A DNA stretch of 64,000 bases. Source: Balneola sp. GTDB taxonomy: Bacteria; Bacteroidota; Rhodothermia; Balneolales; Balneolaceae. The stretch spans positions 62,001 through 126,000 of the forward strand of contig NZMW01000002.1 in NCBI GenBank assembly GCA_002694685.1, written 5' to 3'. Positions 33,792-51,639 of this stretch are shown piece by piece. The notes under the pieces are model-generated. The model searched no databases. It was given only the letters and a program-made list of their open reading frames with translations, and was not told where the DNA came from. Position numbers and translations under genes: made by a program. Within the stretch, counting starts at the first letter, position 1, and each line of letters starts with the position of its first letter.

Positions 33792-36700
33792 TTAGAGTCC
33801 GCTATGAGGTCCCTTTAATTCACTTTTTGCAAAATGTATTGACAGGGTGCTTTCCGGATCAGAGCTAAGTTTAACCTCTCCATGTATTTGTTTTAAAAGT
33901 ACTTTAATAAGCTCTTTACGAAGGTCGGTATTAGGGTCTTCATCACTATTATATAGTGGTAGCAGGTTGTTGTCTGGATTTTTGAGTTCAATTTTCACAC
34001 ACTCAACATTATTAGTCATGGAGATAAGCAGCTCACTTTTATCATCACCCGAATTGTTCTCGCATATGTAGTCTAGGTAGTCTAAAATCTCGTTTAACAA
34101 CATACCCGCTGGAATAGCTTGATTTACATTCAGCTCAACTTCATCCAGACCTAAGTCTGCAGCTAGTGTAAATGCTCGTTCCTTGAATAAACTACTTACT
34201 TCACCAATAACACTTTGTATGTATTTCTTAAAGCTTACGTGCGAGAGGCTTTCATTTTGGTAAAGCAGTTCATGAATCTTTGCTATTGCAGTGATACGAG
34301 ACCTGGTAGAGTTTAAATGCTTGGCAAATTTAGGATCTGAATTTTCGATGATTTCCAGATCAACCAGTCCTGAAACAATAGCCAGGTTATTTTTCACCCG
34401 ATGGTGTACTTCATTTAGCAGAGTGTCTTTTTCTTGAAGTGACTTTTCAATGATGTTTCTGGCTTCAACTTGTTCTGTTACATCAATGGCTTCAACAAAA
34501 ATCCCATAAGTTTCTCCTTGATCATTATGTATGGGCTTATATACAAAATTGAGATAATGTTTTTTTGAATCTCCGTTTTCACCCTTGTTAAAGTATACTT
34601 CCCTTTCGTTAAAATAGAGAGTTTGGTCTGACTCATAGCTATTGTCTAAAAGCTCAATGAAACCTTGGTTCGCTAATTCAGGTATCGCTTCAAGAACCGG
34701 AAGCCCAATGAGTTCGTCTCTACTTACCAGCTCTTTATACTTATTGTTCACAAAAGTGTAAGTATGATCTTTACCCTCTAGCATGGCTATGGCTGACGGA
34801 GATCCTTCAAACATATCCTGCATTTGAATACGTTCTCTCTTTTCCATTTCCAGAAGATGTACAATCTTGTTTTCAAGCTCTTTGCGTTTAGTTATGTCAA
34901 CGTACATTCCATAGATTGCGATGACTTCACCGTCAAACTCAACAGGTACGCCTCCAACTAGAACGGGAACTTCTTCTCCATTTTTATTGATGCGGGTTGT
35001 TTCAGTCTGGAAACTATCGCCGGTAAAACTGAGTCGGGAAAGCTTTTCACCCTGTTCGTTCATTTTCTTTGGGACGATAGTGTCGTCCAGGCTCTTACCT
35101 GTCAACTCTCCATTGGAATAGCCGAAAATGCTATTGAAGCTATGATTAGTATTTTGGATGCTTCCGTCAGCATCAACCAAAACAATACCAATGGGTGAAT
35201 TAAAGAACAGTTGATTTAGAAGTTGCTGATTTCTCTTAACTTCAATTTCAGCTTTTTTCCTTTCTGTGATGTCGGTATGGGAACCGGCTAATTTGGTTGA
35301 GTTATCTTTACCGTCGTCAAAACTGGCAAATTCTGCAACAGCCATTATCCAGCGATATTCTCCATTTTTAGCTTTAACCCGAAATTCTGCCTCGTATTTA
35401 TCATTGGCACTACGGTATCGCTTAAGCTCTTCATCAGGAATGTCTTTGTCATCTGGATGGAGAAGGCTTAAGAAGAAAGCTCTGTTAAACTCTATTTCTT
35501 CTTCTTTATACCCTAACATTTTATACCAACGGTCATTGTAGTAAGCTTCTCCGGTTTGCATATCAACTTCCCACAAACCTATGTTGGCGCTATTAACAGC
35601 AAGTTCATTAAAGGTCTGAGTTCGCTGGAGTTCTCTTGAGACTAGTAATTTCTCTTTTTCAATTTCTTTGAAATCACTGCGGTTAAGCCCGCCCCCAACA
35701 ATATAGCGTTCGTTGTTTTGCTCAAAACTGGTTCCTTTTAGAAGGTAGTGTACGATGCCGCCGTCTTTTGTAATACACCGGGCTTCTACACTCAATTTAT
35801 TCCCGACTAGTTCTCCAGACATTATATTCTGAAGAATGGGACGATCATCGGGATATACAAGCTCAATTACATTAGTTTGCTCTATCTCTTCCCGGGAATA
35901 TCCTAAGTCTTCTTCAAGCATCTGATTCCAGCGAATCATTTCACCCTTCAGGTTAAAAACAAAAAAAGCAGTGGGTAAACTTGATATGGCTGATTCGGTA
36001 AATTCTTTTTCATCAACCAATTGTTGCTGAATTGCTTTTTGAGAAGATATATCCCGAATATTAATGATCGTTTTTTGAGTTTCATCTTCAGCCTCAAAAA
36101 TTACGGAGCTTACTTCAACCGGTATTTTATGACCATCTTTATGTGTGAATTCAACCTCACCGATAAAAGATCCGCTATCGGATCTTTTAGAAATAGCTTC
36201 AGCATTCATTGGGTTGCTAAGGTCAAATACGAGGTCTCGGTGTTGACCTTCCAACTCCTCAGCTTTATAACCAAGTATATCACACACTGCCGGATTAACC
36301 TTTAATATTTGGCCATCGGGTCTGCCTATGATTGTTCCTTCCAGGGTGTTGTTGAACTGTAGCTTGTATTGCTGCTCAGAGGCTTTTAAAGCTTCTTGAG
36401 TTTCTTTTCGCTCTGTGATGTTTTTAAATGCCCAACTGGTAACAGTTTCTCCATTAATATTTCGAAATAAGCTTACACTTAGTTCAATAGGCACTGTCTT
36501 ATTGTTGGCCGTTTTTATTTCAAACTCACCTAAAGAGTTTCCATGCCGGTTAATTCTTTTTTGAATTTCTGCATGGCTTAAGCCTATAGAAAGGTAGGAT
36601 GAAACATCAGAAAAAAGGAGAGCTTCATTACTTGCTTCAAGAATATTACAAGCAGTTTCATTTGCTTCAATGATTTGATTTTTTTCATTGACCGTTAAAA

Positions 36701-37175
36701 TTCCATACAAGCTATTTTGAAAATGCTTATTAAGCTTTTCTTTTGTCTCTTTAAGATACTCTCTGTTAAGTACTTCAGCACTGATATCTTCGTAAATAAT
36801 AACAGCACCTTCATCAGAACCCAGAGAATTAATTTTTACATTAAAGTGAGCTGTTTGGTTATGCAGAAAAGGCTGATATTTAGTTTCAAATGTCTTTTTT
36901 TCACCATTCAGTACTTCTTTAATACCAAGCAAAAGGCGCAATGCGAAATCATTTCCTTCGGCAAGAGGTCTCTGGAGAAATGACAGGATATTTTCATCCA
37001 GTTTTGGATGGTTCCAATGTTCTTTATTCTCATCACTGAAGATCTTCCACTGCAAGTTGTGGGCCACTACTATCCCTTCTGAATCCAGAATAGCAATCTG
37101 TGCATTCAAGGAATTTAGAATCGCAGAACTGATATTGTCCAATTCTACAGTTTTGAAAATTTGGTTATCATTCAT
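33792..37175 (-). CDS. seven-PAS HisKA_2-type sensor protein with degenerate ATPase domain (probable pseudokinase)
   Basis: An 1127-residue soluble protein. Seven PAS domains (starting near 10, 145, 270, 395, 525, 655 and 785) are separated by DITERK-like PAS ends. The dimerisation helix NEVHHRVKNNLAIVSG (H925) is of the HisKA_2/HWE type. The ATPase region (about 985-1120) keeps IPAGMLLNEIL, but the usual NALKH part of the N box is DYLDY, and the DNG.G and GLGL boxes are absent (KNPDNNL and DLRKELIKVLLKQI stand there). ATP binding is therefore doubtful. It probably acts as a phosphotransfer or scaffold protein. Frame and length are intact, so it is not a broken gene. Confidence 0.85.
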   Translation of the reverse strand: MNDNQIFKTVELDNISSAILNSLNAQIAILDSEGIVVAHNLQWKIFSDENKEHWNHPKLDENILSFLQRPLAEGNDFALRLLLGIKEVLNGEKKTFETKYQPFLHNQTAHFNVKINSLGSDEGAVIIYEDISAEVLNREYLKETKEKLNKHFQNSLYGILTVNEKNQIIEANETACNILEASNEALLFSDVSSYLSIGLSHAEIQKRINRHGNSLGEFEIKTANNKTVPIELSVSLFRNINGETVTSWAFKNITERKETQEALKASEQQYKLQFNNTLEGTIIGRPDGQILKVNPAVCDILGYKAEELEGQHRDLVFDLSNPMNAEAISKRSDSGSFIGEVEFTHKDGHKIPVEVSSVIFEAEDETQKTIINIRDISSQKAIQQQLVDEKEFTESAISSLPTAFFVFNLKGEMIRWNQMLEEDLGYSREEIEQTNVIELVYPDDRPILQNIMSGELVGNKLSVEARCITKDGGIVHYLLKGTSFEQNNERYIVGGGLNRSDFKEIEKEKLLVSRELQRTQTFNELAVNSANIGLWEVDMQTGEAYYNDRWYKMLGYKEEEIEFNRAFFLSLLHPDDKDIPDEELKRYRSANDKYEAEFRVKAKNGEYRWIMAVAEFASFDDGKDNSTKLAGSHTDITERKKAEIEVKRNQQLLNQLFFNSPIGIVLVDADGSIQNTNHSFNSIFGYSNGELTGKSLDDTIVPKKMNEQGEKLSRLSFTGDSFQTETTRINKNGEEVPVLVGGVPVEFDGEVIAIYGMYVDITKRKELENKIVHLLEMEKRERIQMQDMFEGSPSAIAMLEGKDHTYTFVNNKYKELVSRDELIGLPVLEAIPELANQGFIELLDNSYESDQTLYFNEREVYFNKGENGDSKKHYLNFVYKPIHNDQGETYGIFVEAIDVTEQVEARNIIEKSLQEKDTLLNEVHHRVKNNLAIVSGLVDLEIIENSDPKFAKHLNSTRSRITAIAKIHELLYQNESLSHVSFKKYIQSVIGEVSSLFKERAFTLAADLGLDEVELNVNQAIPAGMLLNEILDYLDYICENNSGDDKSELLISMTNNVECVKIELKNPDNNLLPLYNSDEDPNTDLRKELIKVLLKQIHGEVKLSSDPESTLSIHFAKSELKGPHSGL

Positions 37176-37318
37176 CTCTTTTAACTAAACTTAATTTCTC
37201 TTCTCTTTGCCATTGACCCCAACTTGAACAGAATTTATGCATCATTTGGGCAAAGCGAATCACGTGAAAAGCGTATTTCTATAATTAGGTTTAAAAGCGG
37301 AGGAGCTAGATTTACTAC

Positions 37319-37337
37319 CTAGGTGAAAACACCTACC
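37319..37337. promoter_or_regulatory. inverted TAGGTG-AAAA-CACCTA dyad
   Basis: A perfect 6-bp inverted repeat (37320-37325 and 37330-37335) upstream of the seven-PAS protein gene and just behind the receiver gene. The half-site TAGGTG recurs in the next gap upstream. It may be an operator for the LuxR-type regulator of this locus; it lacks a T-run on the minus strand, so termination is less likely. Confidence 0.35.
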
Positions 37338-37363
37338 GTGATTTTTTAACTAAGGCCAAATGA

Positions 37364-37741
37364 TTATTTTTTTGGTAGTAATTCATTAATGGCGCTTATC
37401 ACTTCTATTTCAGTAGGAGTAGTAGAGATGATGCCTGAGGCTCCGGCATCAATAAGAGGCTGTACAAATTTTCTATCCTCATTATAGTCCAGGACCAAGA
37501 TGGGGATATCCTGAGTTATTTGGTAGAGAAGGCTGATATTTTTTGGGGCATTTCCAGTGCCGGAAGACGTATTAAGATCAACAATAACCATATTTCTATT
37601 TTTTAGCTCTTCCTCTGGAAATTCAGAGAAAACAAATTCAGGTCTGATAAACTGAATTTCAGCATCAAAATTTGATAATATAGAATCGGAAATGATGGCG
37701 TTCGTCTTATTGGTCCTTCCGATGAATGCTATTTGCAGCAT
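37364..37741 (-). CDS. degenerate receiver-domain protein
   Basis: A 125-residue single receiver domain in NarL/FixJ style (IDAGASGIISTTP ending). Aligned by eye with the adjacent intact regulator, the acidic pair is replaced by G8 and R9, the conserved Thr/Ser is D85, and the conserved Lys is T107. The phospho-acceptor-like Asp (D55 in VIVDLN) remains. Magnesium-dependent phosphorylation is therefore unlikely. It has no DNA-binding domain. It lies between the LuxR regulator and the degenerate kinase, suggesting a protein-interaction role in this pathway. Confidence 0.75.
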   Translation of the reverse strand: MLQIAFIGRTNKTNAIISDSILSNFDAEIQFIRPEFVFSEFPEEELKNRNMVIVDLNTSSGTGNAPKNISLLYQITQDIPILVLDYNEDRKFVQPLIDAGASGIISTTPTEIEVISAINELLPKK

Positions 37742-37825: not shown

Positions 37826-37853
37826 TAGGTGTTTATACGTAGGTGATTACCCT
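37826..37853. promoter_or_regulatory. direct repeat TAGGTG n8 TAGGTG with overlapping dyad
   Basis: Two TAGGTG half-sites (37826-37831 and 37840-37845) lie 14 bp apart, and TAGGTGATTACCCT forms a partial dyad. The site is about 85-110 bp upstream of the degenerate receiver gene. It is a candidate binding site for the LuxR-type regulator encoded next to it. Confidence 0.35.
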
Positions 37854-37929: not shown

Positions 37930-38583
37930 CTAACTTTCAAAGAGATTATTGTTCAGAGCATACTTTACCAATCCGGCTGTATTTTTAGCTCCGGTTTTTT
38001 GAAGAAGGTTTCTTCGGTGAGAATCAACAGTTCTTACACTTACGAATAGTTGATCCGCTATTTCCTGGTTTGTAAACTCATTTACGATGAGCTTTAAAAC
38101 TTCCAGTTCCCGATCTGTGATATTTGCATCTTTTGGTTCGGTAGATTTAGATACTGTAGGTTCAACTAATTGATGGAGAATAGTCTGTGTGGCATCATCA
38201 CTGAAGTAGTGTTTCCCATTTATAATTGAGTTTATGGCCTTAATTAGTTCTTCTTTGCCTGAGCTTTTTAGAATATAGCCTGAAGCACCGGCTTTTATCA
38301 TTTTCCGGATGTGCTGGTCTTCTGTCAGCATAGTAAGAGCCAGGACCTTGATATCGGGGGACTTTTCTTTAATGGCCTGAGTGGCTTCAATCCCGTTCAT
38401 GATAGGCATGGTGATGTCCATGATTATTAAATCCGGCTCATGTTCTTCTGATAGTTCCACGGCTTTATCTCCCGACTCCGCTTCAAAGACAATATCAAAC
38501 CCCGGTTCATCTTCCAGCAGTATTTTAATACCGTCTCTAACGATCTGATGATCATCCACTATTGCTATTTTAATATTAGCCAT
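37930..38583 (-). CDS. NarL/FixJ-type response regulator (receiver + LuxR HTH)
   Basis: A 217-residue DNA-binding response regulator. The receiver is intact: D10 and D11, phospho-acceptor D56 in IIMDITMP, T84 and K106. The C-terminal LuxR helix-turn-helix is TDRELEVLKLIVNEFTNQEI followed by SVRTVDSHR. It overlaps the upstream kinase gene by 8 bp, so HisKA_3 kinase and regulator form a cognate pair. It probably controls nearby signalling genes through the TAGGTG motifs (inference). Confidence 0.93.
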   Translation of the reverse strand: MANIKIAIVDDHQIVRDGIKILLEDEPGFDIVFEAESGDKAVELSEEHEPDLIIMDITMPIMNGIEATQAIKEKSPDIKVLALTMLTEDQHIRKMIKAGASGYILKSSGKEELIKAINSIINGKHYFSDDATQTILHQLVEPTVSKSTEPKDANITDRELEVLKLIVNEFTNQEIADQLFVSVRTVDSHRRNLLQKTGAKNTAGLVKYALNNNLFES

Positions 38584-40954
38584 CTGAATTACTTGTATTG
38601 TTGTTGATTGGAACTACAACATTTAGAAAAGTTCCCCGATTTGGTTTGGAATCAAGTTCAAAATTCCCGCCTAATGCCCCTGTTCTGGTTTTTATTGTTT
38701 GAAAGCCCAGACCGACTTTAAAGTCTTCATCGTTTACGTCAAAGCCTATCCCATTATCATCAATCGTTAGGATCAAATCAAGCTCATCTTTTATAAGTTG
38801 CACGTTTATTTTTGTAGCATCCGCATACTTAATAGCATTTGAAAGTCCCTCTTGTGCAATTCGGTATAAGTTGAATTGAACTTCTCTGGGCAGATCTAAT
38901 CCCTCAATATTGTGGAAATAGTCTAGAGAGATGGAAGAGCTATTTTGGTAACTATCCACTAATGACTCTATAGCCAGAGCAAGTCCGTAATCATCTACTA
39001 CGCGAGGCATAAGATTTCTCGATATCTGCCCGGTTTCAGCTATGGCATTTTTTAAAAGGTTTAAGCCAGTTTTAAACTGATTCTGTTTCTTCTCAGTTAG
39101 ATTTTCAATACTGCTTTTTACTGAATCAAAATTCATGTTAGCCGCAGCAAGATATTGGCCTAATCCATCATGGAGTTCCTGGGCTATACGGGCTCTTTCT
39201 TTATTCTCACCCTCAACAATAGAGGCCAGAACCATTTCCTCTGCTTTCTTCTGTTCTGTGATATCATTTACTAATATAAACCTGTAACTCTTTCCAAAAT
39301 AATTAATGGATGCACCTGATACCCGTACATGGATTATTTCCCCGGATTTTTTTAGATGTCTGAATTCCCCGGTTTCTGAAAGAGGTTTAGCCTTGTCTCT
39401 ATCGATAATGATTTTATCGTGATCACGATCTTCCTCAGGTCTGATGTCCATTAAATTCATTCCATAAAACTCTTTTCGAGAATAGCCATAATGCTTAACA
39501 GCTGCGTTATTTACCTCAATAATTCTAAAGTTTTCAGGGTTATAAATCCACATGGGCTGTGGGCTCTTCTGGAAGAGAAGGCGGTAATTATGCTCAGATT
39601 CTGCTAATCGTGTTTCAGCGTGCACCCGTTCTGTAACATCAACCACTGTTGAAATCATGAGGTTTTGGTCGTATACGGGGATGTTTTTTGCATTAATAAT
39701 CTTTTTCTCTCCCGTCTTTGTAGTGATCTTGACGCCTTCCCAATTCATGCGTTCCGGATTTTTTGAGGAAAGATCAGCTGTAACCATTTCAATCATATTT
39801 TTTCGGTACTTCTCATCCGGATACACGTGTTCGAAAAAGCTATTCACATCTGTAAGAGTTTCCTTAGGCCAGCCATAAATTTCCGAAAAACGCTTGTTGA
39901 TAAGTGTGGTTTCACCCGCATCAATAGAATTAACTGCAACACCGATGGGTAAATTTTCAAGTGTTGTTTCAATAAAGTCGTTTCGTTCTTTTAACTGCTT
40001 TTGGTATTCAGTTCTCTCCGTAACATCAAGCCCGATACCAATAATACTGTTATCAGATAACTGAATATTAGACCATTCCTGTATGTGCATGTTGCCAAAC
40101 TTATCCTGTACTTCAAATTTATACCAGCTCCCATCTGCTTCAGACATAACTTGTTGAGCTTTTTCTCTCATTTTTGCATCAGGATAGCAAGCTCCAAGAA
40201 GGTCAATTTCTTGAATTTCTTTATTTGACCAGCCTAACGTATTTACAAAGGCTTCATTAACCCGGATGGAATTAATTTCAGGATCATAAATATCCACCAT
40301 TACAGGAATCTGCTCAAAAATGCGTTCGAAAAGTTCTTTCTCCCTGTCATATTCTTGTTCAAGCATTTTTGTTTCGGTGATATCTTCAATAACACCTGTG
40401 ATATGAGTTGCTTCTCCCTGTTCATTTTCGTGAACAGTACCCTGACTTTTCATCCAATGGATACTTTCATCCGGCCAAGTGATACGAAATTCAGCTAAAT
40501 AGGGAGTCCTGGTTTCAATTGCTTCAATGAAAGCCTTCTTCACATCACTTACATCATCAGGATGAACCATGCGATAAAAGTCATTTAGGTCCCACTTTTG
40601 GGGCCTTTCTTTTAAACCAAAGAGTTTATAGTGGTGGGGTGAAGTAGAATTCTCGTTGGTTTTTAAATTAATACTCCAGGTTGCAATTTTTACAGAGTCC
40701 AGAGCTTTATCAACAACTTCTTGAGCGTCTTTTATATTATTGTTGCTAAACTGAACCAGAAAATACAGCATCAAGGAAGTTGTAAATACGAATAGCAGAC
40801 CCTTGAGGGTGGAATATCTGGTGAGGGTGTCTACGTCTTTTACAAAGAGAAGAAGAAGTTGATCTGAAAACAAAATCCAGAGTGCCGCAAAAACGAGATA
40901 GATCACGGTAATGGTAACCGAGTTAAGTTGGAATATTTTTCTATATCTACTCAT
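38576..40954 (-). CDS. membrane PAS sensor histidine kinase (HisKA_3)
   Basis: A 792-residue NarX/DesK-class kinase. Two membrane segments (about 11-34 and 46-66) are followed by four PAS domains (about 80-190, 205-315, 325-440 and 450-565). The HisKA_3 helix has ARIAQELHDGLGQYLA (H595). The ATPase domain keeps RIAQEGLSNAIKYADA, DDNGIGFD and the GLGFQTIKTRTG region, so it should be catalytically active. Its stop overlaps the start of the LuxR-type regulator gene. Confidence 0.92.
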   Translation of the reverse strand: MSRYRKIFQLNSVTITVIYLVFAALWILFSDQLLLLFVKDVDTLTRYSTLKGLLFVFTTSLMLYFLVQFSNNNIKDAQEVVDKALDSVKIATWSINLKTNENSTSPHHYKLFGLKERPQKWDLNDFYRMVHPDDVSDVKKAFIEAIETRTPYLAEFRITWPDESIHWMKSQGTVHENEQGEATHITGVIEDITETKMLEQEYDREKELFERIFEQIPVMVDIYDPEINSIRVNEAFVNTLGWSNKEIQEIDLLGACYPDAKMREKAQQVMSEADGSWYKFEVQDKFGNMHIQEWSNIQLSDNSIIGIGLDVTERTEYQKQLKERNDFIETTLENLPIGVAVNSIDAGETTLINKRFSEIYGWPKETLTDVNSFFEHVYPDEKYRKNMIEMVTADLSSKNPERMNWEGVKITTKTGEKKIINAKNIPVYDQNLMISTVVDVTERVHAETRLAESEHNYRLLFQKSPQPMWIYNPENFRIIEVNNAAVKHYGYSRKEFYGMNLMDIRPEEDRDHDKIIIDRDKAKPLSETGEFRHLKKSGEIIHVRVSGASINYFGKSYRFILVNDITEQKKAEEMVLASIVEGENKERARIAQELHDGLGQYLAAANMNFDSVKSSIENLTEKKQNQFKTGLNLLKNAIAETGQISRNLMPRVVDDYGLALAIESLVDSYQNSSSISLDYFHNIEGLDLPREVQFNLYRIAQEGLSNAIKYADATKINVQLIKDELDLILTIDDNGIGFDVNDEDFKVGLGFQTIKTRTGALGGNFELDSKPNRGTFLNVVVPINNNTSNSDG

Positions 40955-46027: not shown

Positions 46028-47194
46028 TTAGCCGTTATACCCAACGGATAGAACAGTGATATCATCCGATTGATCAGCTTTACCCATAAACTTAAGTACA
46101 TCCACAATAAGGCTGCGCACAAGTTTATTTAAATCGTCTTCACTATGTTTTTTCAGGAAGGCTTCAAGGCGAGGTTCTTCATACATATCTTCATTTTCTG
46201 CCATAGCTTCGGTAACGCCATCCGTAAACATGAGGATTTTCTCTCCGGGTTGAAGAGTCAGCTCTTTGGTTTCAAACTCAATAGGCTCAATTTTTCCAAG
46301 TAAGAGTCCGGATGTATTTTCGATTTCCTCTATGGTTCCATCTTTTCGGACGATGTAGGGAAGATTATGCCCGCCATTGCAGTATTTCACAGTTCCGGTT
46401 CGGGTATCCATCACTCCATAAAATACGGTAACAAAAGTCGTAAGATCACTTTCCGGAATAAGGATGGTATTTACGGTGGATAGGCATTGTGCCGGGTCGT
46501 CAATCTGAGTGGCTAGAGATCGAATCATTGTTCTGGAGACGGCCATGTAAATAGAAGCAGGTACGCCTTTGCCGGAAACATCCGCAATGAGAAAGCCAAG
46601 CCGATGTTCATCCAGCATAAAAAAGTCATAAAAATCTCCACCTACTTGTTTAGCGGTATGCATTTCAGCATAAATACTAAACTCTTTGCGATCGGGGAAG
46701 GGAGGGAATACCTGGGGCAACATTTTTTGCTGAATTCGAGCGGCTGTCTCAAGGTCCGTTTGTACGGATTCAAGCGTCTTCATTTGTTCTCCTGCTTCAA
46801 GGAGATATTTGATCTCAGAAAGTCCTTTTTTGATCGTTAACTCAAGATCTTTGAAGTCGATGGGTTTGGTAACAAAATCAAAAGCGCCTCTATTCATAGC
46901 GGTACGGATATTTTCCATATCGCCGTAAGCAGATACAATCACCGTTTTAAGAACGGGGTTATTCAATTTCTGAGCTTCAGCTAAAAAGGTAAGCCCGTCC
47001 ATTTTAGGCATATTTATATCAGACAGAACAAGCGTTATATCATTTGACTCCTGCAGCATATCCAGTGCTTCTTCCCCGTTTTCAGCAAAACAAAAATCAT
47101 ATACATCTTCTTTGATTTGTTTTCTGAAGCGCTGCAAAATAAGCATTTGCAGATCCGGCTCGTCATCAACCACCATTATTTTGTGCTGTCGCAT
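46028..47194 (-). CDS. response regulator with SpoIIE/RsbU-type PP2C phosphatase output
   Basis: A 388-residue regulator. The N-terminal receiver (about 5-120) has D10 and D11, phospho-acceptor D59 in VLSDINMPKMDG, and FVTKPID. A coiled linker follows, then a SpoIIE phosphatase domain (about 185-385) with KQVGGDFYDFF, IADVSGKGVPASI, GGHNLPY, FTDGVTEA and SDDITVL, all metal ligands retained. Family knowledge: such phosphatases dephosphorylate STAS proteins in partner switching. It is last of the six-gene operon; the divergent STAS gene at 61287 is its likely substrate (inference). Confidence 0.93.
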   Translation of the reverse strand: MRQHKIMVVDDEPDLQMLILQRFRKQIKEDVYDFCFAENGEEALDMLQESNDITLVLSDINMPKMDGLTFLAEAQKLNNPVLKTVIVSAYGDMENIRTAMNRGAFDFVTKPIDFKDLELTIKKGLSEIKYLLEAGEQMKTLESVQTDLETAARIQQKMLPQVFPPFPDRKEFSIYAEMHTAKQVGGDFYDFFMLDEHRLGFLIADVSGKGVPASIYMAVSRTMIRSLATQIDDPAQCLSTVNTILIPESDLTTFVTVFYGVMDTRTGTVKYCNGGHNLPYIVRKDGTIEEIENTSGLLLGKIEPIEFETKELTLQPGEKILMFTDGVTEAMAENEDMYEEPRLEAFLKKHSEDDLNKLVRSLIVDVLKFMGKADQSDDITVLSVGYNG

Positions 47195-47219
47195 AGAATT
47201 GTAGCCCTAACTGTTAATA

Positions 47220-47603
47220 TTATTTATTTTCGTCCAGAAGTTGGTGAAGCTCCTGTTTTAAAGAATCAAAATTGATGGGTTTAGTGAAAAACTCTTTTGC
47301 CCCAGAGTTGATGGCTTTCTCATAATTTTCATCATCCCCATAGGCAGAAATCATGCTGACCTTTATTTGTGGAAACTGTGACTTAACGGCTTCAAGAAGC
47401 TCAAAGCCGGTCATACCCGGCATGTTAATATCAGAGAAGATATAGACTACATCAGGGGGTTGTTTGCTCTCAAGAAGTTCGAGAGCTTCGCTGCCGGAGA
47501 AGGCAAATTCCAATTCAATTAATCCTTGTCTGACCTCTTTGCGGAATTTCTGCCGGAATAGCATCTCTACATCCCGTTCATCATCAACTACTAAAAATTT
47601 CAT
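47220..47603 (-). CDS. single-domain response regulator (receiver only)
   Basis: A 127-residue CheY-like receiver with intact residues: D7 and D8, phospho-acceptor D58 in YIFSDINMPG, Ser in VSMISAYGD, and Lys in FFTKPIN. It has no output domain. It is related to the receiver of the downstream phosphatase (shared FRQKFRKE / QRFRKQ-like segments and the same TKPI end). It lies 19 bp after the propeller kinase and 25 bp before the phosphatase, and may be a phosphate relay or sink for the four kinases. Confidence 0.92.
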   Translation of the reverse strand: MKFLVVDDERDVEMLFRQKFRKEVRQGLIELEFAFSGSEALELLESKQPPDVVYIFSDINMPGMTGFELLEAVKSQFPQIKVSMISAYGDDENYEKAINSGAKEFFTKPINFDSLKQELHQLLDENK

Positions 47604-47622
47604 ATTTCGTACCCTTCCCTAA

Positions 47623-50600
47623 TTAAGTTAAATATACTCTAAAGCGAGTAAACTGTTCTTCTTTTGTTTCGATTTCTAATGTGCCACCGTGAGCTTTGAT
47701 AATATCGTTGGTGATAGACAGCCCCAGCCCTGTACCTTCCGTTCCTTTTTTAGTGGTAAAGAAAGGCTGCAGAATCTTGTCTTTCACTTCCTGACTCATT
47801 CCCGAGCCGTTGTCTTCAATTTCGAGCATAGTTTTTCCGTCCTTCTTTCTAGTTCGGAAGATGATTTTCGGCTTGTAATCAGCATCGCTTTTCGTTTTAT
47901 CCCTCATGGCATCAAAGGCATTGTTGCATAAGTTTACGATTACCCTGCTGAAGTCTTCAGCGATTAGAGGGATGTCACCAACAGCGTCGTCGAGATCAAA
48001 TTCCAGATCTACATTAATGGGGTTTTTGCCTGCTCGCATTCCATGAAAAGAGAGGTTGGCAAATTCTTTAACAAGATCTGAAAGGTTGGTAGGAACTTTT
48101 TTGCCTGAACCGCCCCGTGAGTGTTCTAACATTGATTTTACGATATTGTCAGCGCGGGAACCATGTTCATGGATTTTTTTGAGGTTGGTTTCGATGTTGT
48201 TGAGGATTTCCAGTGCTTCGTTCACCTTACTTACATCCCCCTGTTCTTCATCTTCAGATGAAGAACCTCCCCCTTCTAAGGGGGACTTACCCTTGGGTCT
48301 TAAATCTTTAATTTCATGTCTAACTTCCTCAATCAACTCCACACTTAGCTCTGAAAAATTATTCACGAAGTTAAGCGGATTCTTAATTTCATGAGCAATA
48401 CCGGCGGTTAGCTGCCCCAGGGAAGCCAGTTTTTCTTGCTGTACCAACTGTTGCTGCATGGACTGAAGTTCACTCAAGGTTGAATTCAGCCTTCGATAAG
48501 CAGAGGCATTATCCAACGCGATGGCTGCATAGGTGGCGAGATTTTTCAGCAAGTTTACATGATATGGGGTGTAGGCATCTTTGTTAAAACTTTGAGTTGT
48601 GATTACGCCAATTATACGCCCCTGCTGAATTAACGGCAAATAAATGATAGACAGAGATTCTTCTCCTTCAATCGGAGAGGTGTATGACTTAACATACTTT
48701 TTATACTCCTGCGTATAGTCGCCAATAATGATGTCTTCTTTATTTTTGAAGCAATATACGGCCAACCGTTCTTCATCAAGATTATTGACGAATGGTGAGA
48801 GCATTTTTCCTTTCTCTTTAGTAGCCGGGAACTCAAGTCGATTTCGTTCTTTATTATAAATCCCAACGCCAAAAATGGAAGCGTCCATTATGGAATTCAC
48901 ATTTTCATAAACAGTCTCAATAATTTTCTCTACAGAAAGGGTAGAGGTAATGGCTTGCCCAATCTGGCTTAGTTGTTCGGTATCTGAGCGGCGTTTGTTT
49001 TCTGCTTCAGCACGAAGTTCAGCTTCGCGTAACGTTTGCCTTTCCAGTTCTTTTTTTGAAATTCGGCTTCGCTGAAGACGGTCTACCCCGAAAGCCATAA
49101 ACCCTAACATACCTAATCCCAAACCATAAGCCCACCAGGTGCGATACCAAGGTGGAAGAATGGTGAGATCAATAGAAGCCCCTTCGTTGTTCCAGATACC
49201 ATCTGCATTCGCCGCTTTTACATGAAAGGTATAAGTTCCTTCCGGCAGGTTGGTATAGGTTGCGGATCGTTTATTTCCGGCATCAACCCAGCTTTCGTCA
49301 AAATTTATCAGCTGATAGGAATAAGTGTTACCGGCAGGATTGGCAAAATGGAGAGCTACATAATCAAAAGTCACTTCATTTTGACTGTAGGGTAGGGTGA
49401 TCTTTTTAGTCTCGCTAAGCGATTTTTTAAGTGGAGAATTAGGACCGGGAATAACAGACTCGTTGAAAATTTTAAAATCCGATAATACTACCTGTGGCGG
49501 TATTTCATTTACATGGAGTTGCTCAGGTACAAATGCCGTGATGCCTTCACCACTCCCAAAATACATAACCCCATTACTCCCCTTAAAGTAGCCGTTCTGG
49601 CTATATTCAAGTGCCATAAGTCCATCATCAAGCCCATAATTTCTGAACGTTTCGGTAGCAGGATCAAAATTTGAAATGCCATTGTTGGAGCTCATCCAAA
49701 GGGTGTTTTTACTATCAACCAATAAACCATAAAGAGCGTTATTGGGAAGACCATCTTTTTCTGTGTAATGCTTGGCTGTTTTTGTGTTGATGTCGAAGCG
49801 ATTTAATCCGCCGGCTGATGTTGCTAACCAAAGAATATCCGGTTCATTCTCTAATTGGGTAATACTTGCTATCTGGTTGTGATTGATGGTAGAAGTATCG
49901 GTTGGGTTATAGGTGGAGGCAATGGTGGCATTCCCATCCGGGGTTATTCGTAATAAGCCCAATGTGGTTCCTGCCCAAAGAATGCTGTCCTGGTCTTGAT
50001 GCAAACTCAGTACAGCAGGACCGAATTCTGTATTTAATTCTTCTTTCGGAAGTTTGATGTGCTCAAACTCTCCCGTTTTTGAGTTAAAACGATCGAGGCC
50101 GCCAATACTGCCAATCCAAAGCATATCTTGATCAGCCGCTGTAGGTAAGATCGCAAAAAGACTATTTCGCCCTTGATTTCCATCAACTGGGGGATGTCGA
50201 AATCGGGTAGATTTCTTAGTGGTTCGGTTAAACAAATTCAGCCCACCACTGGTACCTATCCAAAAATTCCCATTATTACCTTCATGAAAAACTCTTATAG
50301 ATCCGAATATAATAGAAGTAGAATCATCAGGGTCAAATGTATAGCGAGAGGTATTTCCGGAATTAATATCAAATTCCGTCAGAATATCCCCACTAGCACC
50401 GATATCAGTACCTGCCCATAGAGTTCCTTTTTTGTCTTCATAAACCCCCCAAACAATACCCGGGGATATAGTTTGGTCGTCATCAGGATCATTTTTTAGA
50501 TGAGTGAAATTAACTGCGCCGGGGTTGAATGCTTGAAGTCCCTTAGTAGCTGTTCCTGCCCAAATAGTCCCTGAGCGATCAGCAAACAGGGAAGAAACGA

Positions 50601-51639
50601 AATTATCGCTGAGGCTATTGGGATCTCTTGGGTTATTGCGGTAGGAGGTGAATTCTTGAGTAAGCCGATCAAATCTTGCAATTCCTGTACCGGGGCCACC
50701 TACCCATAATATATTGGGGTTGTCTGGATCAGGAACAATTTCGTGTATGAAGTTAAGTGGGTTTATATTTTCACCATCATTTGGCTCAATAAGATATCGC
50801 TCAAAATCACCGGTCTTACTATCCAGATAGACTAAACCATTTCCGGTAGCCAGCCAAAGGGCACCGGGTTTTGTAGGAGAAATATATTGACCGAGAATGT
50901 TGTGCGGAGCCCCATAAAACTCTCTACCATCCGGATTATGTAAAAACCGGGTGATTTCCTCCGTATCAATATTAATTCTTGAAATACCGTTGGTGCCTCC
51001 AGCCCAAATAAAACCCTCTTGGTCTTCACTAATCCAAAAAACGGTACTGCTTGCTATTGTGGTGGGGTCATCATGATCATGAGCGTATCGAATAAATGTA
51101 CCATCTTTACCGGCAGGCATTTTATTTAGGCCACTGCCAAAGGTGCCTACCCAAAGGTTGCCGCGGCTGTCTTCAAAAGGCATAAAAGCACTGTTGCTGG
51201 AGATAGAAGTAGAGTCCTCGGGATCATGAAAATACTTAGTGAATTTCCCGGTTGCTTGATCTAAACGATTAAGGCCGGCCGCTTCGGTAGCAACCCAAAT
51301 ATCGCCATTGGATGCTTCAGCCATCCCCCATACCCAGCTTTCGGAAATGGAAGCAGTATCGAAAGGAGTTTGTTTATATACTTTAAATTCATGGCCATCA
51401 TACCTATGCAAGCCACCCTGAGTAGCTATCCAAAGGAAGCCCTTGCTGTCTTGCATAATGGTATTTGCACTGGCTTGATTCATGCCTTCTTGCAACCCTA
51501 TATGTTCAAAACGAAGGGTAGGAGCCTCACTGCTCAAAATGGTAGGCTTTTCTTCCTGCTCAGCTTGCCCAAAAACTGAAGACGAGAAGAACAGATACAG
51601 TAGTCCTGTTATCAGGAAATGGTTAATACGAAATGTCAT
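47623..51639 (-). CDS. two-component regulator propeller sensor kinase with GAF domain
   Basis: A 1338-residue sensor. The signal peptide (about 1-24) is followed by two-component-regulator-propeller blades (about 45-700; DSKGFLWIATQGGLHRYDG and many WxGT repeats). A Y_Y_Y domain (about 735-830) and one membrane segment (about 834-850) follow, then a GAF domain (about 895-1045). HisKA carries LGQLTAGIAHEIKNPLNF (H1083), and the ATPase domain carries DNGSGM and GTGLGLSI. There is no receiver, unlike classical hybrid propeller kinases. The loop between HisKA and ATPase contains the SPLEGG palindrome insert (about 1119-1124). The operon continues to a lone receiver. Confidence 0.92.
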   Translation of the reverse strand: MTFRINHFLITGLLYLFFSSSVFGQAEQEEKPTILSSEAPTLRFEHIGLQEGMNQASANTIMQDSKGFLWIATQGGLHRYDGHEFKVYKQTPFDTASISESWVWGMAEASNGDIWVATEAAGLNRLDQATGKFTKYFHDPEDSTSISSNSAFMPFEDSRGNLWVGTFGSGLNKMPAGKDGTFIRYAHDHDDPTTIASSTVFWISEDQEGFIWAGGTNGISRINIDTEEITRFLHNPDGREFYGAPHNILGQYISPTKPGALWLATGNGLVYLDSKTGDFERYLIEPNDGENINPLNFIHEIVPDPDNPNILWVGGPGTGIARFDRLTQEFTSYRNNPRDPNSLSDNFVSSLFADRSGTIWAGTATKGLQAFNPGAVNFTHLKNDPDDDQTISPGIVWGVYEDKKGTLWAGTDIGASGDILTEFDINSGNTSRYTFDPDDSTSIIFGSIRVFHEGNNGNFWIGTSGGLNLFNRTTKKSTRFRHPPVDGNQGRNSLFAILPTAADQDMLWIGSIGGLDRFNSKTGEFEHIKLPKEELNTEFGPAVLSLHQDQDSILWAGTTLGLLRITPDGNATIASTYNPTDTSTINHNQIASITQLENEPDILWLATSAGGLNRFDINTKTAKHYTEKDGLPNNALYGLLVDSKNTLWMSSNNGISNFDPATETFRNYGLDDGLMALEYSQNGYFKGSNGVMYFGSGEGITAFVPEQLHVNEIPPQVVLSDFKIFNESVIPGPNSPLKKSLSETKKITLPYSQNEVTFDYVALHFANPAGNTYSYQLINFDESWVDAGNKRSATYTNLPEGTYTFHVKAANADGIWNNEGASIDLTILPPWYRTWWAYGLGLGMLGFMAFGVDRLQRSRISKKELERQTLREAELRAEAENKRRSDTEQLSQIGQAITSTLSVEKIIETVYENVNSIMDASIFGVGIYNKERNRLEFPATKEKGKMLSPFVNNLDEERLAVYCFKNKEDIIIGDYTQEYKKYVKSYTSPIEGEESLSIIYLPLIQQGRIIGVITTQSFNKDAYTPYHVNLLKNLATYAAIALDNASAYRRLNSTLSELQSMQQQLVQQEKLASLGQLTAGIAHEIKNPLNFVNNFSELSVELIEEVRHEIKDLRPKGKSPLEGGGSSSEDEEQGDVSKVNEALEILNNIETNLKKIHEHGSRADNIVKSMLEHSRGGSGKKVPTNLSDLVKEFANLSFHGMRAGKNPINVDLEFDLDDAVGDIPLIAEDFSRVIVNLCNNAFDAMRDKTKSDADYKPKIIFRTRKKDGKTMLEIEDNGSGMSQEVKDKILQPFFTTKKGTEGTGLGLSITNDIIKAHGGTLEIETKEEQFTRFRVYLT
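48244..48265. repeat. perfect palindrome inside the propeller kinase
   Basis: TTCTTCATCT-TC-AGATGAAGAA has 10-bp arms. It lies directly next to the TCCCCCTT palindrome in the inter-domain loop, and encodes the acidic/serine stretch SSSEDEE. Confidence 0.6.
48268..48285. repeat. TCCCCCTT-NN-AAGGGGGA palindrome, copy A (in-frame in the propeller kinase)
   Basis: 8-bp arms around CT. Read on the coding strand it gives SPLEGG at about residues 1119-1124. The same arms and the same frame occur at 55461-55478 in the 7TM kinase. The preceding TTACATCCCCC is shared too. Confidence 0.75.

Follow-up and report, generated by a model that had tools for sequence, protein, structure and literature searches.

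A conserved degenerate kinase and receiver beside an intact HisKA_3-LuxR pair: a candidate pseudo-enzyme feedback module of Balneolaceae

Gene Content and Layout of the Locus

The window analysed here is a stretch of 64,000 nucleotides from a genome deposited as Balneola sp. (assembly GCA_002694685.1, contig NZMW01000002.1, positions 62,001 to 126,000), which belongs to a marine bacterium of the genus Gracilimonas (Balneolaceae), with Gracilimonas amylolytica and Gracilimonas mengyeensis as two same-genus matches. On its minus strand it carries four successive genes, for an intact sensor kinase, an intact response regulator, a degenerate receiver (pseudo-receiver) and a degenerate histidine kinase (pseudo-kinase), which are the subject of this study. 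The kinase gene (38576..40954) encodes 792 amino acids with PAS repeats followed by HisKA_3 (Pfam, E=1.2e-12) and HATPase_c (E=6e-11), has orthologues at the module loci of relatives, and overlaps by 8 bp with the gene of a NarL/LuxR-type regulator of 217 amino acids (37930..38583; Response_reg, 8e-31; GerE, 1.9e-16), hereafter the LuxR regulator. The pseudo-receiver (37364..37741) comprises 125 amino acids and the pseudo-kinase (33792..37175) 1127 amino acids with seven PAS domains. An initial annotation had placed both degenerate open reading frames with the correct coordinates, strand, frame and lengths and had described them as directly following the intact pair, which is accurate for their same-strand succession but overlooks that each is preceded by a 188-bp gap holding a conserved inverted repeat. 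These two repeats, candidate operators of the LuxR regulator, are TAGGTGTTTATACGTA (37826..37841), which departs at one of ten arm bases from TAGGT-N6-ACCTA and lies 85 bp upstream of the pseudo-receiver gene, and TAGGTGAAAACACCTA (37320..37335), an exact match 145 bp upstream of the pseudo-kinase gene.

Residues Lost and Kept in the Pseudo-Kinase

In the 1127-residue protein, Pfam recognizes several PAS domains and HisKA_2 (E=1.1e-21), while no match was obtained to HATPase_c, nor, at E up to 1, to HPTransfase (PF10090, ChpT) or Spo0B. Alignment with intact HisKA_2 kinases places three substitutions in the catalytic and ATP-binding (CA, or ATPase) domain (33795..34109, minus strand), namely Tyr1033 for the Mg-binding Asn of the N-box, NPDNN (residues 1066-1070) for the G1 motif DxGxG, and Arg1086 for the G2 Gly. 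The N-box residues Asn1028-Glu1029 are retained, as is the phospho-acceptor helix HHRVKNN (residues 924-930, codons at 34386..34406, minus strand) with the putative phospho-His925 in the dimerization and histidine phosphotransfer (DHp) domain. Both the alignment and the missing HATPase_c match thus agree with the initial description of a seven-PAS protein that keeps HHRVKNN and lacks G1 and G2. AlphaFold2 still predicts a DHp-CA fold (predicted local distance difference test, pLDDT, 81) that resembles EL346-type HisKA_2/HWE kinases in the PDB, with EL346 closest; such structural matches were used as evidence of fold, not of function. No intact ATP site was found.

The main homologue set comprised syntenic homologues from 28 Balneolaceae genomes of many genera. 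The Mg-binding Asn, G1 and G2 are missing from all 28, whereas HHRVKNN is invariant throughout (28/28) and the DHp domain holds most of the invariant columns. HisKA_2 paralogues aligned from the window genome keep the ATP motifs, one of them partially, and none has all the losses of the pseudo-kinase; because the losses recur in every syntenic homologue and are not found together in any aligned same-genome paralogue, the alignments place them far beyond chance. Given that the ATP-site losses occur in every homologue, the pseudo-kinase is probably no longer able to bind ATP. Among the paralogues of the window genome, the one at G000:C16:160678-161283 (L204) shows partial erosion of the G1 box (NNGNKL).

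The dead kinases group in a single clade, supported at 99/93 in one tree and at 95/89 in a tree with more outgroups. A tree of the DHp domain alone, with too few columns and three label changes, was unresolved, and the single origin of the dead state therefore rests on the full DHp-CA trees. The intact HisKA_2 kinase of a genome from a sister family with the same gene order (G100) was considered as the ancestral live state and rejected, since it is not sister to the dead clade; this locus is therefore comparable only in gene order and small receiver.

Residues Lost and Kept in the Pseudo-Receiver

The small protein matches Response_reg only at E=0.13, which fails the Pfam cut-off, and is nevertheless predicted by AlphaFold2 as a (beta-alpha)5 receiver fold (pLDDT 90.6) whose Foldseek matches are PDB receivers with template modelling (TM) scores of up to 0.8. 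The alignment bears out the loss of the acidic pair (Gly8/Arg9), of the Thr (Asp85) and of the Lys (Ser106/Thr107) that had been proposed for it, and adds that the phospho-acceptor Asp55, absent from the earlier description, is retained here and in 19 of 24 homologues. In most homologues the Thr position is occupied by His, so that a His-x-Tyr stands in place of the Thr switch. The protein falls under the published definition of a bacterial pseudo-receiver, that is, a receiver fold without key catalytic residues (PMC12632262), and, judged by these residues, it cannot be switched or cycle phosphate in the normal way. The way in which such bacterial pseudo-receivers are switched is a question still open in the field (PMC12632262). 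The adjacent LuxR regulator is the next-best match of the pseudo-receiver in many genomes; an origin as a recent tandem copy of its receiver is not claimed, as the tree joins long branches.

Distribution and Selection

Synteny searches recovered the degenerate pair in nine of the ten genus members examined and in many other Balneolaceae genera. Ratios of nonsynonymous to synonymous substitution (dN/dS) are quoted for a single close pair of genomes (G040/G064), because dS was saturated in most other pairs, and amount to 0.085 for the pseudo-kinase, 0.138 for its CA part, 0.21 for the pseudo-receiver and 0.017 for the LuxR regulator. The suggestion that both genes are full-length, in frame and selected is upheld by frames that are open across genera and by values well below 1, and by these measures both degenerate genes are under purifying selection and not decaying. 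Only one relative shows a frameshifted pseudo-receiver, which appears split over two frames (L085, 8500-9008, genome G035), likely through a frameshift in genome or assembly.

The occurrence of the degenerate genes follows that of the LuxR regulator. With a single exception at a contig edge, every genome in which the pseudo-receiver or the pseudo-kinase was found also has a LuxR orthologue, and a Gracilimonas genome that lacks the orthologue (G066) lacks both pseudo-genes as well. The reverse does not apply, as genomes with a LuxR orthologue can lack one of the two. The regulator itself is 58-82% identical across the family, with its active-site residues intact in all 27 orthologues checked.

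A Candidate Operator Upstream of the Degenerate Genes

In most module loci, the receiver gene, the dead-kinase gene or both are preceded by the 16-bp inverted repeat TAGGT-N6-ACCTA. It is present in all nine Gracilimonas-group loci first examined, often accompanied by a weaker second copy at a distance of 24 or 34 bp. Across 28 loci and with at most one mismatch allowed, 33 matches fall in 17.9 kb of module gaps versus 2 in 464.5 kb elsewhere, whereas 12 scrambled-arm controls gave 0-3 matches in the module gaps and 7-33 elsewhere. No repeat was found upstream of the active HisKA_3 kinase or in intergenic DNA across the 151 kb that surround the remaining HisKA_2 kinases of the window genome. 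In a Gracilimonas genome whose HisKA_3-LuxR pair has moved to a different contig from the pseudo-genes (G051), the repeat remains with the latter, and in two other families with a LuxR orthologue it stands upstream of small pseudo-receivers (exact in G107, with one mismatch in G100). NarL-type sites have a 7-2-7 spacing. The repeat has the geometry TAGGTGN-NN-NCACCTA, mostly 35-200 bp upstream of the starts, with a half site that differs from the classical NarL heptamer; a Bacteroidota-type -7 box was found at no consistent position downstream of it. A role as transcription terminator was rejected, since the repeat is not followed by a T run and is also found ahead of KaiC genes whose upstream neighbours differ. 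From its position and conservation, we infer that the LuxR regulator probably controls both degenerate genes, which would give feedback.

Proposed Mechanism and Alternatives

Conservation across the family together with a shared candidate DNA switch speaks for a regulatory module rather than broken genes. At the genomic level, the tie of this module to the active pair is well supported by synteny, co-occurrence and the shared candidate operator, as the initial annotation had surmised, although the module is not a fixed four-part set; an action on the pair itself is proposed. Phosphorylation of LuxR-type regulators by HisKA_3 kinases is established chemistry of these families, and the HisKA_3 kinase would accordingly phosphorylate the LuxR regulator here. 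Once phosphorylated, the latter would bind the TAGGT-N6-ACCTA repeats and set the expression of pseudo-receiver and pseudo-kinase, where the binder and the direction of control are both inferred. The pseudo-kinase, with DHp dimer and phospho-His kept, probably acts as a PAS-gated histidine phosphotransferase or docking protein in the manner of PhyT, and might exchange phosphate between other receivers and the LuxR regulator, or else hold or drain the latter. The pseudo-receiver may mimic a receiver, either by occupying the DHp domain or by pairing with the LuxR receiver, and both degenerate proteins would thereby feed back on signalling. The His persists where the ATP chemistry has gone, which makes PhyT-like phosphotransfer or docking the most economical interpretation. 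In our view the chances that the locus represents a pseudo-enzyme feedback module conserved in Balneolaceae, with a PhyT-like pseudo-kinase, are about even.

Several observations weigh against this proposal. The pseudo-receiver evolves fast, and three genera carry the dead kinase without the small receiver. Among Fodinibius-like genomes, two keep the rest of the module and a pseudo-kinase without DHp-CA, reduced to its PAS domains (L282, 840-2357, in G029; L276, 4474-5274, in G088), and three have lost the whole pseudo-kinase and kept the rest (G038, G074, G075), so that the pseudo-kinase is not essential to the HisKA_3-LuxR pair. At Fodinibius-like loci that carry it, the pseudo-kinase is followed by an intact single-domain receiver and a GAF-HisKA kinase, while no such adjacent receiver, as an SdrG-like feeder, was found at Gracilimonas loci. 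Other Gracilimonas loci have a GAF-HisKA kinase of about 412 amino acids a few bases after the pseudo-kinase (L056, 6192-7430, in G040, and equivalents); orthologues of it occur in seven genomes and none was found in the window genome (best 34% identity), where it has been lost.

Among the alternatives, a pseudo-kinase that is never phosphorylated and works as a non-catalytic scaffold or competitor, with DHp/CA surfaces that bind the LuxR regulator or the live kinase under PAS control as in DivL, would accommodate the CA fold that persists without its ATP residues and the PAS-only remnants that survive in two genomes, and PhyT itself sequesters PhyR (PMC5898713). An invariant HHRVKNN in all 28 homologues is hard to explain without His chemistry, yet the His of PhyT also matters for PhyR binding, and we regard the scaffold as doubtful but worth keeping in view. 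Somewhat fainter are the prospects of a dedicated phosphatase of the LuxR regulator. Phosphatase activity can outlast the loss of ATP binding, and a phosphatase induced by the regulator would amount to negative feedback, which fits the candidate operator; however, PhyP was first taken for a phosphatase and turned out to be a phosphotransferase (PMC5898713), and a general phosphatase role is not favoured by the frequencies of pseudo-histidine kinases (PMC12632262). Another route would be phosphorylation of the pseudo-kinase His in trans by the CA domain of an intact HisKA_2 kinase within a heterodimer. Histidine kinases are known to form mixed dimers, and most HisKA_2 paralogues checked in the window genome are intact, but the transmitter of the pseudo-kinase groups separately from all paralogues and no gene for a HisKA_2 partner is linked to the pseudo-kinase gene, which makes this route improbable. 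Slow decay, with relics kept for a time by linkage, might account for the several Fodinibius-like genomes with a truncated or lost pseudo-kinase, the frameshifted pseudo-receiver and the three genera without receiver, but is disfavoured and very improbable in view of dN/dS far below 1, frames open across genera, an invariant DHp motif and conserved private candidate operators.

Comparison with Known Systems

The PhyT-like reading takes its model from PhyT (formerly PhyP) of Sphingomonas melonis, which combines an HRxxN motif with a degenerated ATPase domain, transfers phosphate from SdrG to PhyR and also sequesters PhyR (PMC5898713). The pseudo-kinase shares with it a HisKA_2/HWE-type DHp domain with the HRxxN His, a degenerate ATPase domain and a gene beside a response regulator, and the Fodinibius-like loci with intact receiver and GAF-HisKA kinase recall the Pak-SdrG-PhyT-PhyR chain. 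In contrast to the alphaproteobacterial PhyT, with its periplasmic sensor and its PhyR-NepR-EcfG partner locus, the protein from Balneolota carries a PAS array, its partner locus is a HisKA_3-LuxR pair to which a pseudo-receiver and shared candidate operators are added, and its phosphotransfer is proposed from sequence. The PhyK/LovK-MrrA hub of Caulobacter likewise has HisKA_2 proteins that work as phosphotransferases instead of kinases, a role that is proposed here, and PhyK does so even with G1/G2 mutated (PMC5964349); the CA domains of PhyK and LovK are, however, well conserved in sequence, while the CA residues at issue here are lost in every homologue. With the phosphotransferases ChpT and Spo0B (via PMC5898713) the pseudo-kinase has in common a DHp dimer, a phospho-His and a degenerate CA domain, but its DHp is of the HisKA_2 type with seven PAS domains and gives no HPTransfase or Spo0B match. 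For the pseudo-receiver the closest parallel is CmrT of the Clostridioides difficile CmrRST system, where control of expression by the kinase-regulator pair is one proposed model (PMC12632262). Both have a receiver fold without the residues of phospho-chemistry and are encoded with an intact kinase-regulator pair, whereas the present pseudo-receiver stands alone without output, often keeps the phospho-Asp and mostly has His-x-Tyr in place of the Thr switch.

To our knowledge, only Alphaproteobacteria have phosphotransferases of proven activity that descend from dead HisKA_2 kinases. The Balneolaceae loci offer, in a distant phylum, a conserved natural module in which pseudo-kinase, pseudo-receiver, live partner and a defined candidate operator lie side by side; since species that have lost one part or another also exist, the feedback and phosphotransfer roles are directly testable.

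KaiC-HisKA_2 Loci and Neighbouring Genes

A stricter form of the repeat is rare genome-wide, being present in 24 of 128 genomes. In other species it precedes KaiC-HisKA_2 pairs as well as the genes of one more HisKA_2 kinase and of a PAS protein. In the pairs, a HisKA_2 kinase gene comes after the gene of a KaiC-like double ATPase, and the repeat stands 109-184 bp upstream of the latter (L328, 3818-5272, in G003; L329, 3906-5339, in G051; L275, 7467-8903, in G011), which suggests a LuxR-KaiC-HisKA_2 regulon in relatives. A tentative extension, to which we give limited credence, is that the LuxR regulator targets chiefly signalling proteins (the dead HisKA_2 kinase, the dead receiver and, in sister species, KaiC-HisKA_2 pairs) through a single inverted-repeat operator. 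The module would then form a network of sensors that control other sensors, in which a PAS-gated pseudo-kinase would integrate phosphotransfer and a KaiC timer would possibly be coupled to it.

In the window, a receiver-SpoIIE phosphatase, a stand-alone intact receiver and a 1338-residue kinase cluster at 46028-51639 on the minus strand, a few kb upstream of the module. Two relatives encode a second LuxR-type regulator that has lost its acidic pair (L216, 8742-9380, in G006; L217, 7092-7730, in G063) and that has as neighbours an intact HisKA_2 kinase, a small pseudo-receiver and a KaiC homologue, a mirror image of the window, which combines a live regulator with a dead kinase.

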